Shown one piece after another: positions 666-29,757 of a stretch of 39,107 bases of DNA (the first letter of the stretch is position 1; each line of letters begins with the position of its first letter). Under the pieces are notes generated by a model that worked only from the letters and a program-made list of their open reading frames with translations, did not search any database and was not told where the DNA came from. The DNA lies in assembly GCA_016933615.1 (NCBI GenBank), contig JAFGAO010000025.1, positions 1-39,107 of the forward strand, given 5' to 3'. Origin of the DNA: Acidobacteriota bacterium (GTDB lineage Bacteria > Acidobacteriota > UBA6911). The position numbers and the translations under genes were made by a program.

Positions 666-1250
666 CTATGGTGTCCTGAGCCGCTTGGTCACTTCCTGGG
701 CGATAATTTTCCCAGATCTCATTTTTATTTCGCGGACCAATTTGATAGAGTCACGATAAATTTCCTTCAGGTATCCGTCGAAAAGCCTGTCGCCCTCTCT
801 GAGGAAGTAGGCTCGGTTTCCGGAACCCTGGACGATAGCAAGGCGCCCGTTTTCCTCCTTGATGGAGATTCCTTTAAGCACCGCTTCCTCTATGAACGTA
901 CCGGAAATGCCCGGCGGGGGAAGGCCGCGGTCCATTTCCTTGTCTCCATCGACCCCCTGTTTTTTAAGGAGCGGATTAAGAAATGGGTCGCCGAGATTCC
1001 CGGGATTGTAGGAGATCCCGGTATAGTCCAGACGGGGGCTCTTCGGGGAATCGGGCTGTTGCGATGCGGCGCCGGCGCGGTCCGCTGCCTGCGCCATTGA
1101 ATCCCGAACCGGCAGCGCCGATATCGCGAAGATTATGAGAAGACAACCCGCGGTTCCGAATGCGGAAGACCGTCTGCGCATTCGGCCCGGCGGGCCTGCA
1201 TGCCTTCTGAAATGCCTCGAGTAGTGATGATGGAAATATTTAAGGATCAA
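666..1250 (-). CDS. pilP: PilP, type IV pilus inner-membrane/periplasmic assembly protein
   Basis: A 194-residue protein with the PilP core. The motif DPFLNPLLK near residue 90 is followed by a beta-rich domain (GISGTFIEEAVLKGI, then AYFLREGDRLFDGYLKEI), which in PilP contacts PilNO and the PilQ secretin. The TTG start overlaps the pilO stop (TTGA) and has AAGGAG 8 nt upstream, so I keep it. An internal ATG at 1181 has no Shine-Dalgarno but would start a more typical signal peptide (MRRRSS, hydrophobic stretch, then a possible cut after SMAQA). Many PilP proteins are lipoproteins; here the only nearby Cys precedes the hydrophobic core, so there is no convincing lipobox and the protein may be anchored by an uncleaved or cleaved signal peptide instead. 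Confidence 0.88.
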   Translation of the reverse strand: MILKYFHHHYSRHFRRHAGPPGRMRRRSSAFGTAGCLLIIFAISALPVRDSMAQAADRAGAASQQPDSPKSPRLDYTGISYNPGNLGDPFLNPLLKKQGVDGDKEMDRGLPPPGISGTFIEEAVLKGISIKEENGRLAIVQGSGNRAYFLREGDRLFDGYLKEIYRDSIKLVREIKMRSGKIIAQEVTKRLRTP

Positions 1251-1870
1251 GGCGCTGTCTCCTTTGTGCCTGAAACATCGTTCCCGGCAGGATCCGGTTG
1301 ATTTTCTCTGTAAACAAATGTCGTTGCCGTGCAGGTTGCCTTCAGGGTCAATTTTGGATCGGTGGATCCTTCAATATTCTGAACGGAAATGGTTCCCACG
1401 TCGATGATCCTGGTCGCCCGTCCGATTTTTTCGAAAAAGTTGCCGAGTCCGTTGTAATTGCCCTGGACCTCGATATCGATCGGCCAGTCGGAATAAAAAT
1501 CCCTGGTAATTACCGGCTTCGGGGAAAATTTCAGGATCTTGAGGTTGCTGGAAACGGCCATGTTCTGAACGCTTCGCAAAATAGTAGGGGTTTCTTTCTG
1601 CGCGGGCAGCATGCTGCGAAGATCGGCCAGATATCGTTCCAGCCGGGCCAGCTCCTGTTCAAACTCTTTGAGCTGGCTTTCGACCGCGGTCATTTTCGCT
1701 ACCGAGGTTTCGAGATTCGCGATTTCCACCTTGAGCGCGTCCCGCTCCCTGATAAGCCCCTTCATAAAATAGATGTAAAAGACGACGGCAAGGCAGACAA
1801 CAAGGCCGGCCAGCAGCGCGTGCTGGACGGGCCGGGAAAGATTTTCTAAGCGTATATTCTTTAGATCCAT
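1247..1870 (-). CDS. pilO: PilO, type IV pilus inner-membrane alignment protein
   Basis: 207 residues with the classical PilO plan: a short cytoplasmic start, one transmembrane helix at about residues 17-36, a coiled coil at about 38-90 (ALKVEIANLETSVAKMTAV) and a ferredoxin-like periplasmic domain (YNGLGNFFEKIGRATRIIDV). PilO forms a heterodimer with PilN and links the PilM ring to PilP/PilQ. The ATG at 1870 has GAGGAG 7 nt upstream. The gene starts 4 nt after pilN ends and its stop overlaps the pilP start, so translation is probably coupled. Confidence 0.92.
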   Translation of the reverse strand: MDLKNIRLENLSRPVQHALLAGLVVCLAVVFYIYFMKGLIRERDALKVEIANLETSVAKMTAVESQLKEFEQELARLERYLADLRSMLPAQKETPTILRSVQNMAVSSNLKILKFSPKPVITRDFYSDWPIDIEVQGNYNGLGNFFEKIGRATRIIDVGTISVQNIEGSTDPKLTLKATCTATTFVYRENQPDPAGNDVSGTKETAP

Positions 1871-1874
1871 TTCT

Positions 1875-2438
1875 TCACTCCTCGGGTTGATACTGCGCGC
1901 TCATGCAAAGGAGCGAGAATTTCGAAGCCTCGTTCTGGGTGGATATCTCCTCGAGATCGACGCTTTGAAAGAAACCGGTTTCTGCAAGATTGGTCATAAA
2001 ATCCGGAATGGCCTCAATTTTTTGCGTCAAACCGACGATCTTGACCGTGTTGTCTTTCTGAATCAGCGAAGTCAGCCACAGCAGCCTGTTCTTGGGGATG
2101 CTGTGAAGCACGTGGTTGAGAAGAAGGACCGGGCCTGTCTGCTGTTCCTTAAGCTGCTCGATGAGGCGGATTCGGCTCTGAACGTGCTTTTTGTCTTCTT
2201 CATACTTCTCAAGTTTTGCCTTAAGCGCCTGAAGCCGCGCCTCTTCGGCTTTGAGTTCATTGCGGTATTCGGTCATGCCGTTCTTCTGATCGTTGACGAC
2301 ATAATACCAGGCACCCATGGACGCCGCGACCAGAACGAAAAAGACAACCAGCAGGACGCCCGTTTGGGACGAGGACGGCCTCACGGGGGTCCTGTGGGTC
2401 CGGACTGCCGCATTTTTCAGTAGATTTACTTTAATCAT
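1875..2438 (-). CDS. pilN: PilN, type IV pilus inner-membrane protein
   Basis: 187 residues from the ATG at 2438. The N-terminus MIKVNLLKNA is the conserved cytoplasmic segment that binds PilM. One membrane helix follows at about residues 26-47, then a coiled coil at about 50-95 (ELKAEEARLQALKAKLEKYEEDKK) and a periplasmic domain similar in plan to PilO. The frame stays open 17 codons further upstream, but that would overlap pilM and bury the conserved INLL/VNLL start, so I use the inner ATG, which lies 7 nt after the pilM stop. PilN with PilO forms the alignment subcomplex. Confidence 0.92.
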   Translation of the reverse strand: MIKVNLLKNAAVRTHRTPVRPSSSQTGVLLVVFFVLVAASMGAWYYVVNDQKNGMTEYRNELKAEEARLQALKAKLEKYEEDKKHVQSRIRLIEQLKEQQTGPVLLLNHVLHSIPKNRLLWLTSLIQKDNTVKIVGLTQKIEAIPDFMTNLAETGFFQSVDLEEISTQNEASKFSLLCMSAQYQPEE

Positions 2439-2445
2439 AGCCGCT

Positions 2446-3507
2446 CTATTCCTCAGGATTTCGGATTGCCAACCCGACCGCGATGGCAAAATCTGCGGCG
2501 CGGTCCGCTATCAATGAGGATGGGAATTTTCTCGGGTCGTATTTGATTTTTTTGAAAGCGTTGAATTTTTCCGCCGGGATTTCAAATTTCTGGGTCAGCG
2601 CTTCAATCAGACCGGTCGTATGCGCCGCGCCCCCGCTGACGATCATTCGGTCGATGTGCTCCACGGTCGTTGTGGACTTGAAGAAATCGTAGGTTTTCTG
2701 GATCTCGAGGCAAATGATTTCGGTGACGGATTCGATCACGCGTCTTACTTCAGACGCATCGATGGTTTCCGCTTCCTGGCCATGTTTCAGGGATTCGGCC
2801 TGTTCATAGTCGATGTTGAATTCCTTCTGCAGAAATTCCGTATAATGGTGGCCTCCGATGCCGACATCGCGAGTGAACAGAAATTCAGTGCCCGAAACGA
2901 TACTGATCGTCATGGTGCTCGCGCCTATATCGAGCAGGGCGACGGTGTCCTTGCCGGACGGCCCGTAATTGATTTCGTAGGCGTTTTGAAGCGCAAATGC
3001 ATCGACATCCACCAGGACGGGTGTTTTCCCGGCCATTTTCACGACACTGGAGAAGTCCGTAATTTTGTCTTTTTTTACCGCCACCAGCAGGATATCCAGG
3101 TTTCCCGTCGACGTATTCTCTCCCAGAACCTGATAGTCCAGATTGACGTCCGATATATCGAAGGGTATGTACTGCTCCGCTTCCCACTGTATGGATTCCG
3201 ACAATTCCGCCTCGCTCTGCGACGGTAAAGATATTTTTTTGACGATGACCGAGTGACCGGAAATGGATGTCATGACGCGTTCATTTTTTATTCCCTGTCC
3301 AGAGAAAATCCGGTCGATCGCTTCCGATACCGGCAGCTTCGAGATGATGACGCCGTCGACGATACAATCCGGGGAAACCTCCTCGATTCCCAGGCTGAGA
3401 AGTTCATAGCCGCCCTTGCGCAGAGGCCGGAGTTCCGCCTCCTTCAGAGCTCTGGATCCTATGTCCAGACCGACTGCCTGTTTGTTCCTATTCAAAAAAC
3501 TGAGCAT
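2446..3507 (-). CDS. pilM: PilM, actin-like ATPase of the type IV pilus
   Basis: 353 residues, cytoplasmic, of the PilM/FtsA actin-like fold. Visible nucleotide-site motifs are GLDIGSR (residues 13-19, phosphate 1), LLDIGAS (191-197, phosphate 2) and SGGAA (291-295, adenosine loop). PilM forms a cytoplasmic ring that binds the N-terminus of PilN. It is the first gene of the five-gene minus-strand operon. No strong Shine-Dalgarno precedes the ATG at 3507 and I could not find a convincing sigma-70 promoter in the upstream 340 bases; a CRP-like palindrome lies about 180 bp upstream. Confidence 0.94.
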   Translation of the reverse strand: MLSFLNRNKQAVGLDIGSRALKEAELRPLRKGGYELLSLGIEEVSPDCIVDGVIISKLPVSEAIDRIFSGQGIKNERVMTSISGHSVIVKKISLPSQSEAELSESIQWEAEQYIPFDISDVNLDYQVLGENTSTGNLDILLVAVKKDKITDFSSVVKMAGKTPVLVDVDAFALQNAYEINYGPSGKDTVALLDIGASTMTISIVSGTEFLFTRDVGIGGHHYTEFLQKEFNIDYEQAESLKHGQEAETIDASEVRRVIESVTEIICLEIQKTYDFFKSTTTVEHIDRMIVSGGAAHTTGLIEALTQKFEIPAEKFNAFKKIKYDPRKFPSSLIADRAADFAIAVGLAIRNPEE

Positions 3508-14006: not shown

Positions 14007-14022
14007 TGGCATAGCGATTGCA
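14007..14022 (+). promoter_or_regulatory. Sigma-54 promoter of the kinase/regulator operon
   Basis: TGGCAT-AGCGA-TTGCA matches the -24/-12 consensus TGGCAC-N5-TTGCA in all but one position, with the required 10 bp between GG and GC. Expected start near 14033, giving a leader of about 70 nt with a hairpin close to the 5' end. Confidence 0.87.
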
Positions 14023-14101
14023 TTTTGATAAAACAGGCACCGCCCTGAATTGGGCGATCGTGTGGTAGAGTATGGCGATTGACGGTCCCTGGAGGGTTCT
14101 T

Positions 14102-15418
14102 ATGGCGCCGGATACTGAGATTCACAAAGAACGGATAGAAAACCCGGCGTTCCCGTCCTGTTCGAACAGAAAAATGGACCGGGGGGGAGAAACGGGATTG
14201 CTTATTGAAGCTTTTGAGATGTTTACGAAGGCTTCAAGTTCCCTGGAAACGGCATATAGCCAACTTCAGGCGAAGGCGCAGAAGCTCACCGAGGAACTGG
14301 AAGCCAAAAATAAGGAGCTGGGAAAAAGCCTGAGGGAAAAGGAGGAAGCCCAGAACTATTTGCACAACATTCTCGAAAGGCTCCCATGCGGGGTTCTGGT
14401 GCTGGATGACGAAGGGGACATAAACCTCTGCAATCCCGTTGCTGCCGAGGTGCTCATGAAGCCCGGAAAAAGCCGACGTCCCTGCCTCAACCCGGAAATA
14501 CGTTCCTATCTTGCCGCCTCTGCTGCTTCGGGGGGCGACAAGAACGAGATCGAAATCCCTCTGAAACGCGGCAAGAATAGAAAGTTTCTGGCTACCTCGG
14601 GCGCCCCGCTGACGGATGCAGCGGGCGAGCGCGTCGGTACTCTCCATATTGTCCGAGACATCACGGAAATGAAGGCTCTCCAGGACCGGAACAAGCGGGT
14701 CGAGCGGCTTTCGGCCATGGGTGAAATGGCAGTGGAACTCGCTCACGAGATTCGCAATCCCCTGGGAAGCGTCGAGCTGTTTGCCTCGCTCCTTGAAAAA
14801 GAGGTTTCAGGGGATTTGAAACGATGGGCCGAGAACATCCGGATCGGCACGCAATCGCTGGACACCATCGTTTCCAACATGCTTCATTTCGCCAATCCGT
14901 TGTCTCCGGCTTTCTCGGAAGTGAATATCCATCATGTCATAGAGGACGTTCTGGCGTTTGTCGATCCCATCATGAAACAGCGCAAAGTCTCGATCAATTG
15001 CCGGCTGGGGGCGGATCGACCGGTTCTTTATGCAGACGGCGAACTCTTGAAACAAATGATGCTGAATCTGATCATGAACGCCCTGAACGCAATGCCGTCC
15101 GAGGGCCTGCTCCTGGTCCGGACCCAAAATTATAATCAGGCCAAAGGCGGCCGGAAAGGGCTGGAGCTGAAAATTCGGGATTCGGGCGTCGGCATTCCGC
15201 CCGAAAACCTGGATCGTATTTTCGATCCTTTTTTCACGACCCATAAAAAAGGTACGGGACTGGGCCTTTCCGTCGTGCACAGGATTGTAGACCAGCATTC
15301 CGGGACCATCCGGGTATCCAGCGAAATCAACCGCGGCACCACCTTTACAATTCGTTTCGGCGCAGGGCCTTCCGGTAAACAAAATTTCCAGATTTCAGAG
15401 GAAACAAAGCATGCATGA
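14102..15418 (+). CDS. PAS-domain histidine kinase, FleS/FlrB-like
   Basis: 438 residues from the ATG at 14102, which has GGAGGG 5 nt upstream; an in-frame ATG at 14072 is weaker. There is no membrane segment, so it is cytosolic. Residues 45-85 form a coiled coil, 88-190 a PAS domain (ILERLPCGVLVLDDEG to LHIVRDITEMKAL). The phospho-acceptor is His215 in AHEIRNPLGSVELFASLL, wording typical of FleS/FlrB kinases. The ATP lid has N box LNLIMNALNA, DSGVGIPPENLDRIFDPFFTT and GTGLGLSVV. It overlaps the next regulator by 8 nt, so the pair is translationally coupled and almost certainly cognate. It probably senses a flagellar assembly or metabolic cue through PAS. Confidence 0.9.
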   Translation: MAPDTEIHKERIENPAFPSCSNRKMDRGGETGLLIEAFEMFTKASSSLETAYSQLQAKAQKLTEELEAKNKELGKSLREKEEAQNYLHNILERLPCGVLVLDDEGDINLCNPVAAEVLMKPGKSRRPCLNPEIRSYLAASAASGGDKNEIEIPLKRGKNRKFLATSGAPLTDAAGERVGTLHIVRDITEMKALQDRNKRVERLSAMGEMAVELAHEIRNPLGSVELFASLLEKEVSGDLKRWAENIRIGTQSLDTIVSNMLHFANPLSPAFSEVNIHHVIEDVLAFVDPIMKQRKVSINCRLGADRPVLYADGELLKQMMLNLIMNALNAMPSEGLLLVRTQNYNQAKGGRKGLELKIRDSGVGIPPENLDRIFDPFFTTHKKGTGLGLSVVHRIVDQHSGTIRVSSEINRGTTFTIRFGAGPSGKQNFQISEETKHA

Positions 15419-16802
15419 AGAAATACTGGTGGTGGACGACGAACCGCAAATGTTGATCGCGATTCAGGAAACATTGCGGCGCAAAGGTTACGGCATTACG
15501 ACGGCGGGAAGCGGAGTCGAAGCTCTATGCAAGCTGAAGGAAAAATTTTACCATCTGGTTCTTACCGACATGAGAATGCCTGAAGTCAGCGGGCTGGATC
15601 TACTGAAAAAGATCCGGTCCCTTTTGCCCCAGGCTCCCGTTGTGCTCATAACCGCCTACGGCACCATTCAGAACGCCGTGGATGCCATGCGGCACGGCGC
15701 CTTTGATTACCTCCTCAAGCCCTTTTCTTCGGAAGCCCTGGAGGGGGTTGTTCGGCGGGCGCTCGACGCCGGCCCGCAGAGAAACGAAAAGACGTCGCAC
15801 ACGATCCTGACCCAGGATCCGGGATTTTCGCGCACGCTGCAACTGGCGGGACAGGCGGCTTTGAGCGAGGCCACCGTTTTGATAGAAGCCGAAAGCGGAA
15901 CCGGCAAGGAACTGCTGGCCAGAATGCTGCATCAAAAAAGCGACAGATCGAAAAGTGCGTTCGTTGCCGTCAACTGCGCCGCGCTTCCGGAAAATCTGCT
16001 TGAAAGCGAGCTGTTCGGTTTCGAAAAAGGGGCTTTTACCGGAGCCGTCAGCTCCAAGCCGGGGAAATTCGAGCTTGCGCACGGAGGAACGCTGCTGCTG
16101 GATGAAATCGGTGAAATGGCTCCGATTCTGCAGGCAAAGCTGCTGCGCGTTTTACAGGAAAAGGAGGTGGACCGGATCGGGGGGCGGGCTCCGGTGCCCA
16201 TCGATGCGCGCATCGTTGCCACGACGAACCGGGATTTGCGGGAACTGGTGCGCAGCGGGAATTTCCGGCAGGATCTCTATTATCGACTGAACGTGGTACG
16301 TCTCACCATCCCTCCCCTGCGCGAGCGACGCGGCGACATTCCTCTGCTTGCGGACTTTTTTTGTAAAAAATACGGGAAATATCCGTCCGAAGCGGGTGTT
16401 TCTTTGGATCCGGACACTCTCGACCGGCTGATGGCATACTCATGGCCGGGTAATGTGCGCGAACTGGAAAATACGGTACAACGGGCTCTGGCCCTTTGCC
16501 CGGAGGAAATCCTTCGGACCCAAGATCTGCTGCTGCCGAATCCCCCGCCTGCCCCCTCCGCGAATGGAACGAAGGAAAGTGTTCGGGGGACGGGATTTTC
16601 CGCCGGGGTCACCATGCGGGAAATGGAACGCCGATTGATAAGCAGGACACTGGAAGATACCGGCGGCAACCGCACCCGGGCGGCTAAAAGTCTCGGCATA
16701 AGCCTGAGAACCCTGAGGAATAAATTGAATGAATTCGGTTTGCAGGACAGGGGCTTCGAGAACAGACAGGCAAAATCTGCCCACTCCCATGCGTCCCTGT
16801 AA
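15411..16802 (+). CDS. Sigma-54 response regulator, FleR/FlrC-like
   Basis: 463 residues. Receiver: Asp9/Asp10, phospho-acceptor Asp53, Thr81, Lys103. AAA+ domain: Walker A ESGTGKE (161-167), GAFTGA (207-212), LLLDEIGEM Walker B and a sensor region PGNVRELEN. Fis-type HTH near the end: GNRTRAAKSLGISLRTLRNKLNEFG, of the type seen in FlrC/FleR. It would activate sigma-54 flagellar promoters such as those before flgB, flgD and fliL. GAGG lies 9 nt before the ATG, inside the kinase gene. After its stop, 236 nt lead to flgB. Confidence 0.92.
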   Translation: MHEEILVVDDEPQMLIAIQETLRRKGYGITTAGSGVEALCKLKEKFYHLVLTDMRMPEVSGLDLLKKIRSLLPQAPVVLITAYGTIQNAVDAMRHGAFDYLLKPFSSEALEGVVRRALDAGPQRNEKTSHTILTQDPGFSRTLQLAGQAALSEATVLIEAESGTGKELLARMLHQKSDRSKSAFVAVNCAALPENLLESELFGFEKGAFTGAVSSKPGKFELAHGGTLLLDEIGEMAPILQAKLLRVLQEKEVDRIGGRAPVPIDARIVATTNRDLRELVRSGNFRQDLYYRLNVVRLTIPPLRERRGDIPLLADFFCKKYGKYPSEAGVSLDPDTLDRLMAYSWPGNVRELENTVQRALALCPEEILRTQDLLLPNPPPAPSANGTKESVRGTGFSAGVTMREMERRLISRTLEDTGGNRTRAAKSLGISLRTLRNKLNEFGLQDRGFENRQAKSAHSHASL

Positions 16803-16974: not shown

Positions 16975-16990
16975 TGGCACATAAGTTGCT
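16975..16990 (+). promoter_or_regulatory. Sigma-54 promoter of the flgB operon
   Basis: TGGCAC-ATAAG-TTGCT is a near-perfect -24/-12 element, 10 bp between GG and GC. Predicted start near 17001, about 38 nt before the flgB ATG. Upstream, 16803-16974 holds only GC-rich short repeats such as CGACCGGC-AGT-CGACCGGC, which might be activator sites. Confidence 0.92.
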
Positions 16991-17010
16991 TCGTATTCTT
17001 TGGGTCTCGA

Positions 17011-23641: not shown

Positions 23642-25585
23642 ATGAGAGTCAACCTTCCGACCAATATGGCCCAGACCTTTATCGACGCTCCCGCCAAGTC
23701 CGCGGGTAAACAGGACGCGGAAGCCGCCAGCCCGTTTTCTTTTCAGATGAGCCGGGCTCTCGACAGCAACGATGAAAACGAGAGCGTCGACGACGGAGAA
23801 TCCCGGGCCGATACCTGCGAGTCCGCAAACGACGGGAGAGAAGCCGTATCGAATGCCGATGCCCCGGAAACCGATTCCGGAATTGCCGGTCCGAAAATCC
23901 CGGATCCCGACGGGAATGCCCGGCCGGGGAAGAACGTCCATGCCCGGCAAGGGAATTCCGAGTCGGGATCGGATGGAATCCCGAACAGGGCAGGTGGGGG
24001 TGAGGCACCGGAAGAAATGGAAAATTTTTCCGGACGGAAGCCGAGGACCGCGCAAGATCGGGCCGGAGGCAACGGCATAGGGGCCGCCGATAATGCCGTT
24101 GTCGAAACAAAGGATGCCCCGCATGCCTCCGGCGCCGCGCACAGGAATCCTGTTCCGTCGAAGAAGAAGGCGGAAGCCCCGGAGACGGCATACCGGGATC
24201 GCTTGGTTCGTAAGGACGCGCAATCTAGGCGGATCAGTCCTCAGGCGCCAGACGTTCCTGAAGAAGCGCCTGCGACCAAAATGGAAACCGGGAATTCGCT
24301 GCAGGGACACCGATCCCTTCGAATATCGGACGGAGCCGGGTTCTCACAGCCGATCCCTGACAGCTTGGCGAAAGGATATCCCGCTCCGGGCCCCGATGCA
24401 CGGGGGCATTTTGGAACAACGGTGCCGCCGACCGGCAACCCCCGGACCGGGGCACGGATTCCCGGCAGCTCCGGAGACGGACCGATCCTTCCTGGAGGGG
24501 ATACGTCGATTTCTGACGTTGAAAGCGGGCATCCGGCCCCGCATGCGAGCCAGGGCGAAACGGAAGGAAAACAGGGAATCCAGCTTATACATCCGGCGCC
24601 GAAAAACGCGCGGCCCGAAGATCCGGGGGCCGGCAAGATGCTCCGGCCTGGAGCCGATCCTGCCGGAGAGCCGTTGAGACAATCGAATCCGGAGCGCAGC
24701 ATCGGCAAGTCCCTCATAGACGAATCCGGCACGGGCGTAACTGAGACAAAGACAGCGCAAGAAAATGGGACGACAAGGGGGCGATGGAGAACTGCCGGGG
24801 AGGATCCGGCTCTTAAACTGAATGGGAGCGCGATTCGGGGCGAACGGAATTCTTCCAGGACACTATCCGGAGGGGATCTGCTCGAGATAAAAGATTTTCA
24901 CGATGAGGAAACGGCCGGATTGACCGACCGCCCTCCGGCGGAAACGAAGAATAAAACGGAATCCGGCCTTCCTTCGGAAAACGTCATGGAAAGGCCGTCC
25001 GTACCCCATCAGAATCAATCTCCGCCCCGCACCTCCGAGCGGATTCAGTTTACGGTACAGGCTCCGGCAAATTCGACTCCTGCGGCGGGCTCCGGTGCGC
25101 CGGCGCGTCCGGACGCCGCTAAGCCGGCAGCGCTAGTGCAGAACGAATTTCTGTCCCAGGTTTCCGAACGGATTCATTTCCTGATTCGGGACGGGGGCAA
25201 TTCCGTGCGCATTCGGCTGGAGCCCGATCAATTCGGCCACATGGAGATTCGGGCTGAATCCACGGCCCGGGGAATGATGGTGCGCATTTCGGCTGAAACG
25301 GAAGGCGCCAAAAGCATACTGGAAAACAACCTGACCACGCTGCAGCAGAATCTTCAGGAATCGGGCGTGAAAGTGGATCGAATTCAGGTGGTGCTCCAGG
25401 ATTTCTTCGATGCCCAATCCAGTACCGGGCATTCTTCCAAATCGGGTCACTTCCACTCGGGCCAGAACGAAAGCCGGCCCCACAGGAATTACCCCGGGAA
25501 GAGCAGTCCGGCTGAAGAGACGGACCCCGACGATGCCGACGTGCGCCGCTACGGCCACCGGGCCCGTTTTTACACCGTTGCATGA
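23642..25585 (+). CDS. fliK: FliK, hook-length control protein
   Basis: 647 residues. Residues 1 to about 500 are low-complexity (Gly, Pro, Ser, Glu, Asp), the molecular-ruler part. Residues about 500-600 are the conserved C-terminal switch domain: SVRIRLEPDQFGHMEIRAE, ISAETEGAKSILENNLTTLQQNLQESGVKV. FliK is exported, measures the hook and flips FlhB specificity through that domain. AAGGTG precedes the ATG by 8 nt. The ruler is longer than the 405 residues of Salmonella FliK. A GNESRPHRNYPG type basic/Gly tail follows the switch domain. Confidence 0.93.
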   Translation: MRVNLPTNMAQTFIDAPAKSAGKQDAEAASPFSFQMSRALDSNDENESVDDGESRADTCESANDGREAVSNADAPETDSGIAGPKIPDPDGNARPGKNVHARQGNSESGSDGIPNRAGGGEAPEEMENFSGRKPRTAQDRAGGNGIGAADNAVVETKDAPHASGAAHRNPVPSKKKAEAPETAYRDRLVRKDAQSRRISPQAPDVPEEAPATKMETGNSLQGHRSLRISDGAGFSQPIPDSLAKGYPAPGPDARGHFGTTVPPTGNPRTGARIPGSSGDGPILPGGDTSISDVESGHPAPHASQGETEGKQGIQLIHPAPKNARPEDPGAGKMLRPGADPAGEPLRQSNPERSIGKSLIDESGTGVTETKTAQENGTTRGRWRTAGEDPALKLNGSAIRGERNSSRTLSGGDLLEIKDFHDEETAGLTDRPPAETKNKTESGLPSENVMERPSVPHQNQSPPRTSERIQFTVQAPANSTPAAGSGAPARPDAAKPAALVQNEFLSQVSERIHFLIRDGGNSVRIRLEPDQFGHMEIRAESTARGMMVRISAETEGAKSILENNLTTLQQNLQESGVKVDRIQVVLQDFFDAQSSTGHSSKSGHFHSGQNESRPHRNYPGKSSPAEETDPDDADVRRYGHRARFYTVA

Positions 25586-25697: not shown

Positions 25698-25713
25698 TGG
25701 CACGGAATATGCT
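25698..25713 (+). promoter_or_regulatory. Sigma-54 promoter of flgD-flgE
   Basis: TGGCAC-GGAAT-ATGCT has a perfect -24 and one mismatch in -12 (A for T), with 10 bp between GG and GC. It lies about 110 nt after fliK. Predicted start near 25724, leaving a 95-nt leader that holds two hairpins (25727-25748 and 25754-25782). Confidence 0.85.
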
Positions 25714-26174: not shown

Positions 26175-27422
26175 ATGGCTTTGACTTCTTTTTACACGGC
26201 CTTGACCAGCATCAACAACAACAGTACGGCAATCAACGTGATCGGGGACAACCTGGCCAATATGAACACGGTGGGATTTAAGGCCAGTAAGGTCAATTTC
26301 AGCGAGTTGCTGGCGGGCGTTCAGGGGACCAGCGAAACGGGAAATCCCATTTCGATCGGACTCGGTAGCACCCTGAGCGGACTCACCAGAATGAACAACC
26401 AGGGCACGATCGTCAGTACCGGAAACTCCACCGACGCCGCCATCAACCAAAACGGGTTTTTCGTGGTGTCGACCGATGGAGGCATGGGCTTTACGCGTGC
26501 AGGAAAATTCGAATGGGATCAGGACGGGGGCCTTGTGCACTCGGACGGATTCCGGATACTGGGCTATATGGCCCGCAACGGCACGGTGAACAGCTCCGGC
26601 GCCCTGGAGCCCATTGAAATACAGAAAGGACAGATCATGCCGGCCAGCTCCACAACGAGTCTGCAGATACTCGCGAACCTGGATTCGGGAGCCCAGGTCG
26701 GGGAAACATACGGGACGACGGTGCATGTGTACGATTCGCTGGGAGCCGCCCACCCCATCACGCTTGAATTCACCAAAACGGCCGCGCTTACCTGGGATTG
26801 GCAGGCGACCATCCCCGCCGTTGACGTTGGTGGCGGCGCTGCGGATCCGCCGGTGGGCATTGGAAACGGGATCATGAACTTCGACAGCGATGCCAACCTG
26901 ATTGCGCCGGCGGCGAATCCGACCCTGAACATCAACGGCCTCGACAACGGGGCTTCCAATATGGCCCTTGAGTTCGGATTGTGGGACGCCGACGGAAACG
27001 GTCTTTTTACAAGCTTCGACCGGGAATCGGGCGTTTCGACGACCAGGCAGAACGGGAATGCAGCCAGCGTTCTCATGGGAATAACCATCGACAGCAGCGG
27101 GCTGATAGTCGGGAAATCGGAAACAGGCGAATCGGCCACACTGGCGCAGTTGGCTCTGGCGGATTTCCCCAATGTCGAAGGGCTTCAGAAATACAAGGGA
27201 AGTACCTTCATTGCGTTCCCCAGTTCGGGGGAGCCTTCCATCGGAGTTGCGGGGACCGGAGGCAGAGGAACAATTTCCGGTGCGGCGCTGGAACAATCCA
27301 ATGTGGATATGGCGCAGGAGTTCGTCAATCTGATCACGGCCCAAAGGGCCTACCAGGCCAACACGAGAATCATCACCACGACGGATGAACTGTACCAGGA
27401 ATCCATCAACCTCAAACGATAG
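26175..27422 (+). CDS. flgE: FlgE, flagellar hook protein
   Basis: 415 residues from the ATG at 26175 with AGGAG 6 nt upstream. N-terminus ALTSFYTALTSINNNSTAINVIGDNLANMNTVGFKASKV and C-terminus NVDMAQEFVNLITAQRAYQANTRIITTTDELYQESINL are the paired D0 helices of hook proteins. The middle is the variable hook surface. The frame is open upstream to 26091, but that part encodes the hairpin and has no similarity. Confidence 0.97.
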   Translation: MALTSFYTALTSINNNSTAINVIGDNLANMNTVGFKASKVNFSELLAGVQGTSETGNPISIGLGSTLSGLTRMNNQGTIVSTGNSTDAAINQNGFFVVSTDGGMGFTRAGKFEWDQDGGLVHSDGFRILGYMARNGTVNSSGALEPIEIQKGQIMPASSTTSLQILANLDSGAQVGETYGTTVHVYDSLGAAHPITLEFTKTAALTWDWQATIPAVDVGGGAADPPVGIGNGIMNFDSDANLIAPAANPTLNINGLDNGASNMALEFGLWDADGNGLFTSFDRESGVSTTRQNGNAASVLMGITIDSSGLIVGKSETGESATLAQLALADFPNVEGLQKYKGSTFIAFPSSGEPSIGVAGTGGRGTISGAALEQSNVDMAQEFVNLITAQRAYQANTRIITTTDELYQESINLKR

Positions 27423-27510
27423 TTCCCAGGAAACCGGACGGGGAATAACCCTGTGCCCTGAATACCGGGAGGGAGGGAACGCTTTACCGTAAAGGTGCAA
27501 AGAGAAATCC

Positions 27511-28704
27511 ATGGCCATTGCAGCGACGCCCATCGCACAGGGGAAAAGCCTCCTTGAACTGCTGGAGCAGAAGGTGCCGCCACAGGAGCGGGCGATAGAT
27601 CTTTATCGCCGCCTCCTGGCCATCAATACCCTTTCCGGACTGATGGGCTCGGCAGAGACTATTGCCCAGCTACAAAATTTTCTGAGCGAATATTTCCGGG
27701 AATGCCTGGGCGACGGCGCGGCGCGGCTCTACGTCCTCGAAGGATCGTGCTACAGAAGAATCCGTCTTTCGGGAGTTCCGGTCCCCGAAAGGGAAAGTTT
27801 CCTGCCGGGCGTAAAAGGCCTGGCCGGCGGCGTACTGAAATCCGGGAGGCACTTGTGGATACCCGACACACAGGCGTCCGATAGGGAGCGAAAACTTTTC
27901 CGCAACGGCCGCCGAAGTTTTCCGGGATCTCTGCTCATTATACCCTTCCGGGCCAAAGACAAGGTGATCGGCTGCCTAGAGTTGACTTCGAGCCGTCCCA
28001 ATCGTCTGGATGAAATAGAATACCATTTCGGAAAAATCGTGGCGACGCACCTGTCGGCTTCCCTGGAAAACATCCTTACCAGGCAGGAGCTTGCATCGGC
28101 GAATGCCCGCCTGAAAGACAATGACGAGCGCCTGTCCCAGTTGAATGAAAAATTACGGCAGTTGGCCAACAGCGACGAATGCACCGGCCTTTTCAACAAG
28201 CGGAGACTGCTGGAGCAGCTCGATATGGAAATTGCCCGGGCGAAACGCTACGGGGAAGTTTTCAGCTGTTTCATGATCGATATTGATGATTTTAAAAAGG
28301 TCAACGACCGCTACGGCCATCTGGCCGGAGACGAGGTGCTCAGACAGACAGGGAGACTGTTCCGTCAATCCCTGAGAAAATCGGATTTCATAGCCCGATA
28401 CGGCGGGGAGGAATTCACGGTTCTTTTGCCCAGAACCAACGGCGCCGGGGCGTATCGCGCGGCCGAAAATCTTCGTTCCAAATACATGTCGCACCGTTTT
28501 ACACTGCCTCCCGTAGAAGTGAGCCTTACCCTCAGCATAGGCATCACTTCCTGCTCCATATTCGATAGCCTGGACGCGCCTGCCATAATCCGCAGGGCGG
28601 ACGATGCGCTGTACAGGGCAAAGCGGTCCGGGAAAAACCAAGCCTGCTTCAACGAAGAGAATGATGCCGGGGCCAAAATAGTCAGGATTCCGTCAAACGT
28701 TTGA
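27511..28704 (+). CDS. GAF-GGDEF diguanylate cyclase
   Basis: 397 residues, cytosolic. Residues about 35-190 resemble a GAF sensor domain (ARLYVLEGSCYRRIRLSGVP, LLIIPFRAKDKVIGCLELTS), then a short coiled coil (195-218), then a GGDEF domain. The active-site loop is GGEEF (298-302), with DECTGLFNKR (222-231) and MIDIDDFKKVND. An RxxD inhibitory site (Arg289 to Asp292) is five residues before GGEEF. It should make c-di-GMP, subject to product inhibition, in response to whatever the GAF domain senses. It sits between flgE and fliL, 88 nt after flgE, so it is probably transcribed with the hook genes. Confidence 0.92.
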   Translation: MAIAATPIAQGKSLLELLEQKVPPQERAIDLYRRLLAINTLSGLMGSAETIAQLQNFLSEYFRECLGDGAARLYVLEGSCYRRIRLSGVPVPERESFLPGVKGLAGGVLKSGRHLWIPDTQASDRERKLFRNGRRSFPGSLLIIPFRAKDKVIGCLELTSSRPNRLDEIEYHFGKIVATHLSASLENILTRQELASANARLKDNDERLSQLNEKLRQLANSDECTGLFNKRRLLEQLDMEIARAKRYGEVFSCFMIDIDDFKKVNDRYGHLAGDEVLRQTGRLFRQSLRKSDFIARYGGEEFTVLLPRTNGAGAYRAAENLRSKYMSHRFTLPPVEVSLTLSIGITSCSIFDSLDAPAIIRRADDALYRAKRSGKNQACFNEENDAGAKIVRIPSNV

Positions 28705-28705: not shown

Positions 28706-28981
28706 ATAATTGGACACGGAAGCACCGTCTTCGGAACTGTTTTCCACTCTCTGCATTTCTCCTGTCGTCCCGGTTTCCGGCTTCCGGAATCTGCTTCCGC
28801 GGGCCAAAGGCTGTCTATCCCCCCAGAGCCCCCGTTCTTACCCCACGCTTCATGACCCCCCACAAATTCTATAAGGGCAATAATATCAGTAATATAGGCG
28901 CATCCATGCCAGCCGGCCGCCCGATTTATTCCGGATTCGGATTCAACCCATCCTTCAGGAAAAGAGGAATAAAGTGCAAAA

Positions 28982-29000
28982 GGCCGCTTCAGACGCGGCC
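28982..29000. repeat. Inverted repeat GGCCGC-TTCAGAC-GCGGCC
   Basis: Perfect 6-bp arms around 7 nt. It is flanked by A-rich sequence on the left and ATTT on the right, so it could act as a weak terminator of the upstream unit or as an activator site 45 bp before the -24 box of fliL. Confidence 0.4.
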
Positions 29001-29043
29001 ATTTGCCGGGAACGCTTCCTTTCGATAGAAATTGTTTCACAAG

Positions 29044-29059
29044 TGGCATATGAGTTGCA
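29044..29059 (+). promoter_or_regulatory. Sigma-54 promoter of the fliL-fliNOPQR-flhB operon
   Basis: TGGCAT-ATGAG-TTGCA matches the -24/-12 consensus except for T in place of the last C of the -24. Spacing between GG and GC is 10 bp. Predicted start near 29070, about 39 nt before fliL. Confidence 0.88.
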
Positions 29060-29108: not shown

Positions 29109-29681
29109 ATGGCTGCGCCGGATGAAAAAAACGGACTGACGTCGGCACAGAAACAACAGGCAGACAGCAATCCTGTCATCGAAAACAAGAAGGGGAAAAC
29201 CGGTAAGGGAACAATGAAAAAACTTTGGATTATTATCGCGATCCTGGTTGTGCTGACGGCCGTTGGGTTGACCCTGGGGCTCTCGCATTTCAAAGGCGTC
29301 CATCTGGCGGTCACGGATCCGGAGTCCGCCGGAGGGCTGGAAGCGGAACAGACGGCATCGGGAAAACCCAAGCCCGTAACGGCCACTCTGGCGCTGGATT
29401 CTTTTCTGGTTAACCTGGCGGACGAGGACAGCGCGCGGTTCGTGAAGGCCTCCTTTCGATTGGGTCTTGCGGAGGAACCGGATGAGAAAAAAATCGAAGT
29501 GACCGTACCCGCTATTCGGGACTCCATTATCACCCTGCTCAGCTCGAAAACGGCTGAACAGATACGAACCCCCCAGGGCAAAGACAAACTGAGGGAACAG
29601 ATTCGAACAAGAGTGAACTCGATACTGACGGAAGTTGAAGTCGTAGAGGTCTACATCGTGGATTTTGTGGTCCAGCTTTAG
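29109..29681 (+). CDS. fliL: FliL, flagellar basal-body/stator associated protein
   Basis: 190 residues: a charged cytoplasmic start, one membrane helix at about 39-58 (LWIIIAILVVLTAVGLTLGL), a linker, then the FliL domain (FLVNLADEDSARFVKASFRLGLAEEPDEK and IRDSIITLLSSKTAEQIRTPQGKDKLREQI). FliL rings the stator units and aids torque. GGAGG lies 8 nt before the ATG. Confidence 0.96.
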   Translation: MAAPDEKNGLTSAQKQQADSNPVIENKKGKTGKGTMKKLWIIIAILVVLTAVGLTLGLSHFKGVHLAVTDPESAGGLEAEQTASGKPKPVTATLALDSFLVNLADEDSARFVKASFRLGLAEEPDEKKIEVTVPAIRDSIITLLSSKTAEQIRTPQGKDKLREQIRTRVNSILTEVEVVEVYIVDFVVQL

Positions 29682-29688
29682 GGAACCC

Positions 29689-29718
29689 GGACGGGAATAG
29701 AGTTGTGGCTTCCCGTCC
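29689..29718 (+). repeat. Inverted repeat between fliL and fliN
   Basis: GGACGGGAA and TTCCCGTCC form a perfect 9-bp stem around a 12-nt loop, 8 nt after the fliL stop, without a T run. It occupies the place where fliM normally lies. Confidence 0.55.
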
Positions 29719-29757
29719 CGACGGCAAATTTACAGCACGGGAAATACGGGTGAGAGT

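Follow-up and report, generated by a model that had tools for sequence, protein, structure and literature searches.

We consider it likely that a soluble, product-inhibited diguanylate cyclase (DGC), an enzyme for c-di-GMP, the signal by which bacteria settle, was gained by one lineage within a single genus as the last gene of a sigma-54 hook operon. The window, which denotes the whole analysed stretch of 39,107 nucleotides, carries this gene between flgE and fliL, and from the arrangement of the locus the enzyme is probably produced at the same time as the parts of the hook. The features on which this reading is based are compiled in Table 1.

Table 1. Features of the hook operon, the DGC gene and the neighbouring units, with positions in the window.
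Feature	Position	Strand	Evidence
Histidine kinase with PAS domain and response regulator of the sigma-54-activating type, at the start of the flagellar cluster	14072..16802	+	sigma-54-type site at 14007
Sigma-54-type site TGGCACGGAATATGCT, 121 bp 5' of flgD; predicted flgD-flgE-DGC promoter	25698..25713	+	1 mismatch
flgD, hook cap protein, 91 aa	25819..26094	+	PF03963, E 5.2e-24
flgE, hook protein	26175..27422	+	four FlgE/F/G Pfam domains; NCBIfam FlgEFG_subfam, 282 bits
flgE-DGC gap, 88 bp	27423..27510	+	no scanned promoter- or terminator-like site; fold z-score -0.31
GAF-GGDEF DGC gene, 397 aa, ATG start	27511..28704	+	exact ORF, Pfam, NCBIfam, 5 orthologs aligned
GAF domain, residues 49-186	27655..28068	+	Pfam GAF_2 PF13185, E 2.9e-10, over cut-off
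GGDEF domain, residues 219-377	28165..28641	+	PF00990, E 3.8e-43, 147.5 bits vs cut-off 23.8
RKSD, putative I-site RxxD, residues 289-292	28375..28386	+	R289 and D292 invariant in 5/5 orthologs
GGEEF active-site motif, residues 298-302	28402..28416	+	invariant in 5/5 orthologs
Hairpin GGCCGC-loop-GCGGCC, weak transcript-end candidate	28981..29001	+	z -1.85 for 28965-29020; only three T after
Sigma-54-type site TGGCATATGAGTTGCA, 65 bp 5' of fliL; export unit predicted to start here	29044..29059	+	0 mismatches
fliL, first gene of the next unit	29109..29681	+	PF03748, E 6.3e-25

The diguanylate cyclase and its domains

The product had been described in the first-pass annotation as a GAF-GGDEF protein with intact GGEEF and RxxD motifs, and both the Pfam domains and the invariance of the motifs in five orthologs bear this out. 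The protein matches TIGR00254 with a score of 166.9 as opposed to a cut-off of 37.4, and of the 22 NCBIfam models that match, the general one for the GGDEF domain is alone in exceeding its cut-off. In the active-site region, D257, F261-K262, N265-D266, G269-H270 and G273-D274, whose roles we take from the PleD and WspR literature, are likewise invariant in all five orthologs. The RxxD motif lies five residues before the GGDEF motif and by its sequence qualifies as a putative I-site; the distance between RKSD and GGEEF is the usual I-site spacing. Neither the domains nor the motifs nor the alignment of five orthologs contain a sign of a degenerate enzyme, and the gene product is most likely a predicted soluble DGC that is putatively product-inhibited.

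Among solved structures, DgcR and WspR gave the two best profile matches. PleD, WspR and DgcR carry receiver domains. The window protein shares with these three (PDB 1w25, 3bre, 6zxm) a GGDEF domain with GGEEF and RxxD, but differs from them in its N-terminal GAF domain and in the lack of a receiver domain match in Pfam. The structure model of the protein is weak, with a mean pLDDT of 62.6 and a pTM of 0.42, and its fold matches added little beyond the GGDEF domain.

Layout of the hook operon and its promoters

The window was scanned with the sigma-54 consensus pattern TGGCAYRNNNNTTGCW, allowing up to one mismatch. Four sites were found as opposed to 0.80 expected from shuffles, a number reached by 2 of 100 shuffles, whereas a looser pattern gave 25 sites against 19.97 expected and is not above chance. 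Each of the four sites lies just 5' of a unit of the flagellar cluster: the site at 14007 precedes the kinase gene at 14072, the site at 16975 precedes a rod-protein gene at 17000, behind which come another gene of the rod type and then fliE, fliF and fliG, and the sites at 25698 and 29044 precede flgD and fliL, respectively. The PAS kinase and its response regulator are a candidate activator pair of the hook operon, and the cluster also holds flhF and an adjacent ParA-type (flhG-like) gene.

Between flgE and the DGC gene, which lie a short distance apart on the same strand, the scan of the forward strand revealed no convincing promoter- or terminator-like site, and the 88-bp gap does not fold better than its shuffles. 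No sigma-54 site with up to two mismatches occurs in this gap, nor in the corresponding gaps of the relatives G008, G009 and G001. The gap of 404 bp between the DGC gene and fliL, in contrast, holds the perfect site at 29044. The hairpin located in the same gap is not among the sites reported by the terminator scan. Since the flgE-DGC gap contains no site and fliL has one of its own, the most fitting reading is a predicted unit of three genes, flgD-flgE-DGC, which the DGC gene closes and after which fliL starts the next. As the gap is short, no other promoter is seen and fliL has a site to itself, the gene would be co-transcribed with flgD and flgE from the site at 25698. This agrees with the first-pass annotation, which had placed the gene between flgE and fliL, without a visible promoter of its own and under the flgD sigma-54 promoter. 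With 91 aa, FlgD itself is unusually small, and its Pfam match is confined to the N-terminal FlgD domain.

All eight genomes that show this stretch, DGC carriers and non-carriers alike, have the fliL site without a mismatch, with G001 counted although its contig ends before fliL. An assignment of the DGC gene to the fliL-flhA export unit was rejected on account of this perfect and conserved site, and the earlier description of the gene as lying inside one hook/export cluster unit has to be corrected, since the wording blurs the boundary at which fliL starts a separate unit. For flgD, a site no more than 260 bp from the projected start of the gene was found in eight of nine genomes, the sole miss being G014, where the nearest candidate lies about 775 bp upstream. 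The promoters on both sides of the DGC gene are older than the gene. The flgD sites of the window and of seven other genomes are without the first T of TTGC, while the fliL sites keep TTGC, which may point to two classes of sigma-54 promoters with different activators.

Distribution and position of the orthologs

At E <= 1e-40, the DGC was matched in 5 of the 15 genomes of the family set, namely in the window's own genome and in four of nine further genomes from its genus, with identities to the window protein of 75, 63, 60 and 53%. According to tblastn with the flagellar proteins of the window, flgE and the DGC gene are adjacent in G008 (87 bp apart), G009 (91 bp) and G001 (60 bp), and the DGC gene and fliL are adjacent in G008, G009 and G003. 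The contig of G001 is cut on the fliL side and that of G003 on the flgE side, where it ends at DGC residue 39, so that this N-terminus is missing from the alignment. Conservation of the position in relatives, which the first-pass annotation had named as a check on its reading, is thus observed directly 3' of flgE in three further genomes. A strain-specific insertion was rejected, with orthologs at the corresponding place in the window's species and in four others of the genus.

In G005 from the same genus, and in G012 and G014 from a sibling genus, flgE is followed by fliL at an estimated 300-408 bp with no DGC gene between them. G005 has no DGC match at E <= 1e-40 anywhere in its genome; as it is a flagellate, flagella can be had without the gene. 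In G004, G006 and G007 flgE was not matched at E <= 1e-60, and G002 and G013 are uninformative on the position because their contigs end within or just after the flgE match.

Beyond the family, no further orthologs were detected among 38 genomes of the class at 1e-42. A profile search of 297 genomes of the phylum, in which up to six candidates per genome were scored, gave matches in 63 genomes at 1e-48; outside the five genomes of the genus they score no higher than 199 bits, and the majority are limited to the GGDEF part. Flagellar neighbours within about 1.5 kb on each side were found only at the three loci of the genus among 28 loci from this search. Conversely, no DGC was hit 3' of flgE in the best 23 of 64 flgE-matching genomes outside the family, for which about 1.5 kb of downstream DNA was covered in 21 cases, 771 bp at L167 and 43 bp at L166. 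A contig scan for relatives, in which one of the two patterns is a general GGDEF stretch and from which records near the window's genome may be absent, yielded at least 80 loci with 30-47% identity in the best segment and no ortholog among the matches listed. Of the 80 listed loci and 12 others, two had tblastn hits to flagellar proteins of the window, L005 to a FleN-like and L058 to an FlhF-like protein, neither of which is the flagellar locus of the window. On this distribution in family, class and phylum, the gene appears to have been added in this lineage to a flgE-fliL junction that is older than itself, and it is most likely a DGC recruited as the distal gene of the predicted sigma-54 hook operon.

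Phylogeny and selection

The window genome (G000) and G008 group with a bootstrap support of 100 in the trees of FlgE, of the DGC and of the joined export proteins. In both rooted trees G005 falls outside the DGC carriers, with weak support of 37/38 for the joined proteins and 71/64 for FlgE. A single gain of the gene after the split from G005 is likely from these topologies, short of proof because the deeper branches are poorly supported (bootstrap 32-78). Between G000 and G008 the DGC gene has a dN/dS of 0.142, compared with 0.064-0.489 for 12 other genes of the flagellar cluster, values that are rough since the synonymous sites are near saturation. FliK (23642-25585) is the fastest of the 13 genes in this comparison, with 40% identity and a dN/dS of 0.49. 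A chance origin of the arrangement is excluded by conservation, as the gene follows flgE in three other species and has this ratio against the closest of them; a chance ORF was rejected by the domains and the constraint. As judged from these alignments, the placement is conserved and the gene is under purifying selection.

Within the four full-length orthologs, conservation amounts to 81% for the N-terminal 45 residues, 79% for the linker, 73% for the GGDEF domain and 52% for the GAF domain. The extreme N-terminus is not supported as an unusually conserved signal, as residues 1-24 rank 118th of 374 windows of the protein. The best N-terminal windows, starting at residues 14-16, reach 87.5% identity, level with one window of the catalytic domain, so that no stretch of 24 residues in the protein is more conserved than residues 14-37. 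An N-terminal helix for dimerisation and signal transfer is common in DGC-type proteins. The conserved N-terminal helix and linker of the window protein may be such a dimer or signal helix, or a docking site.

Comparison with known systems

A literature search with partial coverage found no report of a DGC in a flgD-flgE operon, and excerpts of a study on Rhodobacterales (PMC11974857) and of a review (PMC13432727) describe none in a flgE operon. By analogy the nearest precedent is HsbD (PA3343) of P. aeruginosa, which the DGC resembles in kind only. HsbD is linked in the excerpted text of PMC5085249 to swimming, swarming, twitching and biofilm, and its gene, as here, was gained in one lineage beside flagellar genes. 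It is located upstream of flagellar region III, however, and wired through HptB/HsbA, while the gene in the window is predicted to close the flgD-flgE operon. The position is comparable to that of LafV from V. parahaemolyticus, a c-di-GMP-type protein whose gene stands last in the lateral flagellar operon (PMC9303241), but the domain of LafV is a degenerate EAL and that of the window protein an intact GGDEF.

Proposed function and alternative explanations

The proposed function begins with the catalytic and inhibitory motifs, which are intact by sequence, and with the retained placement under purifying selection. Transcription of the gene would start at the flgD site, and c-di-GMP would be made in step with the synthesis of hook and basal body, with the I-site limiting and the GAF domain tuning the output. 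More speculatively, c-di-GMP could act on receptors such as the four PilZ proteins of the genome and, while a new flagellum is built, set the speed of the motor, the output of flagellar genes or the attachment to surfaces. Which of the several DGCs of a cell speaks to which output is a general open question, and a DGC whose production is restricted to that of the hook proteins would offer a clear example from nature of c-di-GMP synthesis tied to a stage of flagellar building. An extension of this model, in which the conserved N-terminal helix anchors the DGC to the growing flagellum and the enzyme gives a hook-timed, local and self-limited pulse of c-di-GMP, strikes us as quite improbable; if true, the enzyme would be a timer through which the building of flagella is coupled to the control of brake, pilus or attachment.

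An alternative is that the gene was inserted where two conserved sigma-54 units leave a tolerant gap and has a general, non-flagellar role, in which case the linkage would be positional and the enzyme an ordinary lineage-specific DGC. The gene-free flgE-fliL interval in G005, G012 and G014 is consistent with such an origin, as is the finding that the DGC gene breaks neither promoter, and its GGDEF part is common to many unrelated DGCs. However, the gene is under purifying selection and has been retained beside flgE in four species and beside fliL in a fifth, and the 15 genomes of the family contained no ortholog without a flagellar link, for which reason we regard this explanation as unlikely, though it deserves to be kept in mind. 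Regulation apart from the hook, by a weak promoter of its own inside flgE or in the 88-bp gap, is a long shot in our view: the best sigma-70-like matches over the 3' end of flgE and the gap reach 7-8 of 12 in four genomes, and a sigma-54 site with two mismatches lies inside flgE of G001, but the sigma-70-like matches are weak and occur at no one conserved place, the gaps hardly align, and the promoter scan found no site there.

The first-pass annotation had also suggested a checkpoint feedback from hook construction to motility or pilus use, in which c-di-GMP from the hook stage would in turn affect motility genes or type IV pili. Excerpts of PMC7064773 describe that in other polar flagellates flagellum-linked two-component systems respond to the formation of the export apparatus and activate the rod and hook genes thereafter, and according to PMC7098655 the loss of the flagellum in V. 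cholerae raises c-di-GMP through at least three DGCs. With this precedent, and with the kinase/regulator pair, flhF and the flhG-like gene in the cluster as well as the sigma-54-type site before the hook operon, a checkpoint-linked DGC is plausible. Sigma-54-type sites are, however, also carried by the MS-ring unit (fliE-fliF-fliG) and by the export unit from fliL to flhA, so that no separate gate for the hook operon is evident. Moreover, no c-di-GMP receptor domain was found in those window genes that were scanned with Pfam, a part of the ORFs. The pilus operon, placed 25 kb off in the earlier annotation, was confirmed as pilM-pilN-pilO at about 1250-3507, but it lies on the opposite (-) strand, about 24 kb from the DGC gene, and the link consists of presence in the same 39 kb alone. 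We consider a feedback of this kind rather improbable and prefer the lineage-specific gain of a DGC that would be made with the hook.

Receptors and related genes elsewhere in the genome

The genome, which is 82% complete, contains seven GGDEF, one EAL and four PilZ matches, and the stator (motA-motB) and FliM genes are located on another contig, C265. With PilZ, stator and FliM genes present, possible receivers of c-di-GMP exist in the genome, none of them linked to the DGC gene. fliM is absent between fliL and fliN (29682-29757), the only FliM match of the genome being the one on C265 together with motA-motB. At L005, on contig C109 of the window's genome, a second small GGDEF protein is encoded, followed by an overlapping gene for a ParA/FleN-like ATPase, and a PilZ protein is found about 9 kb further along this contig.
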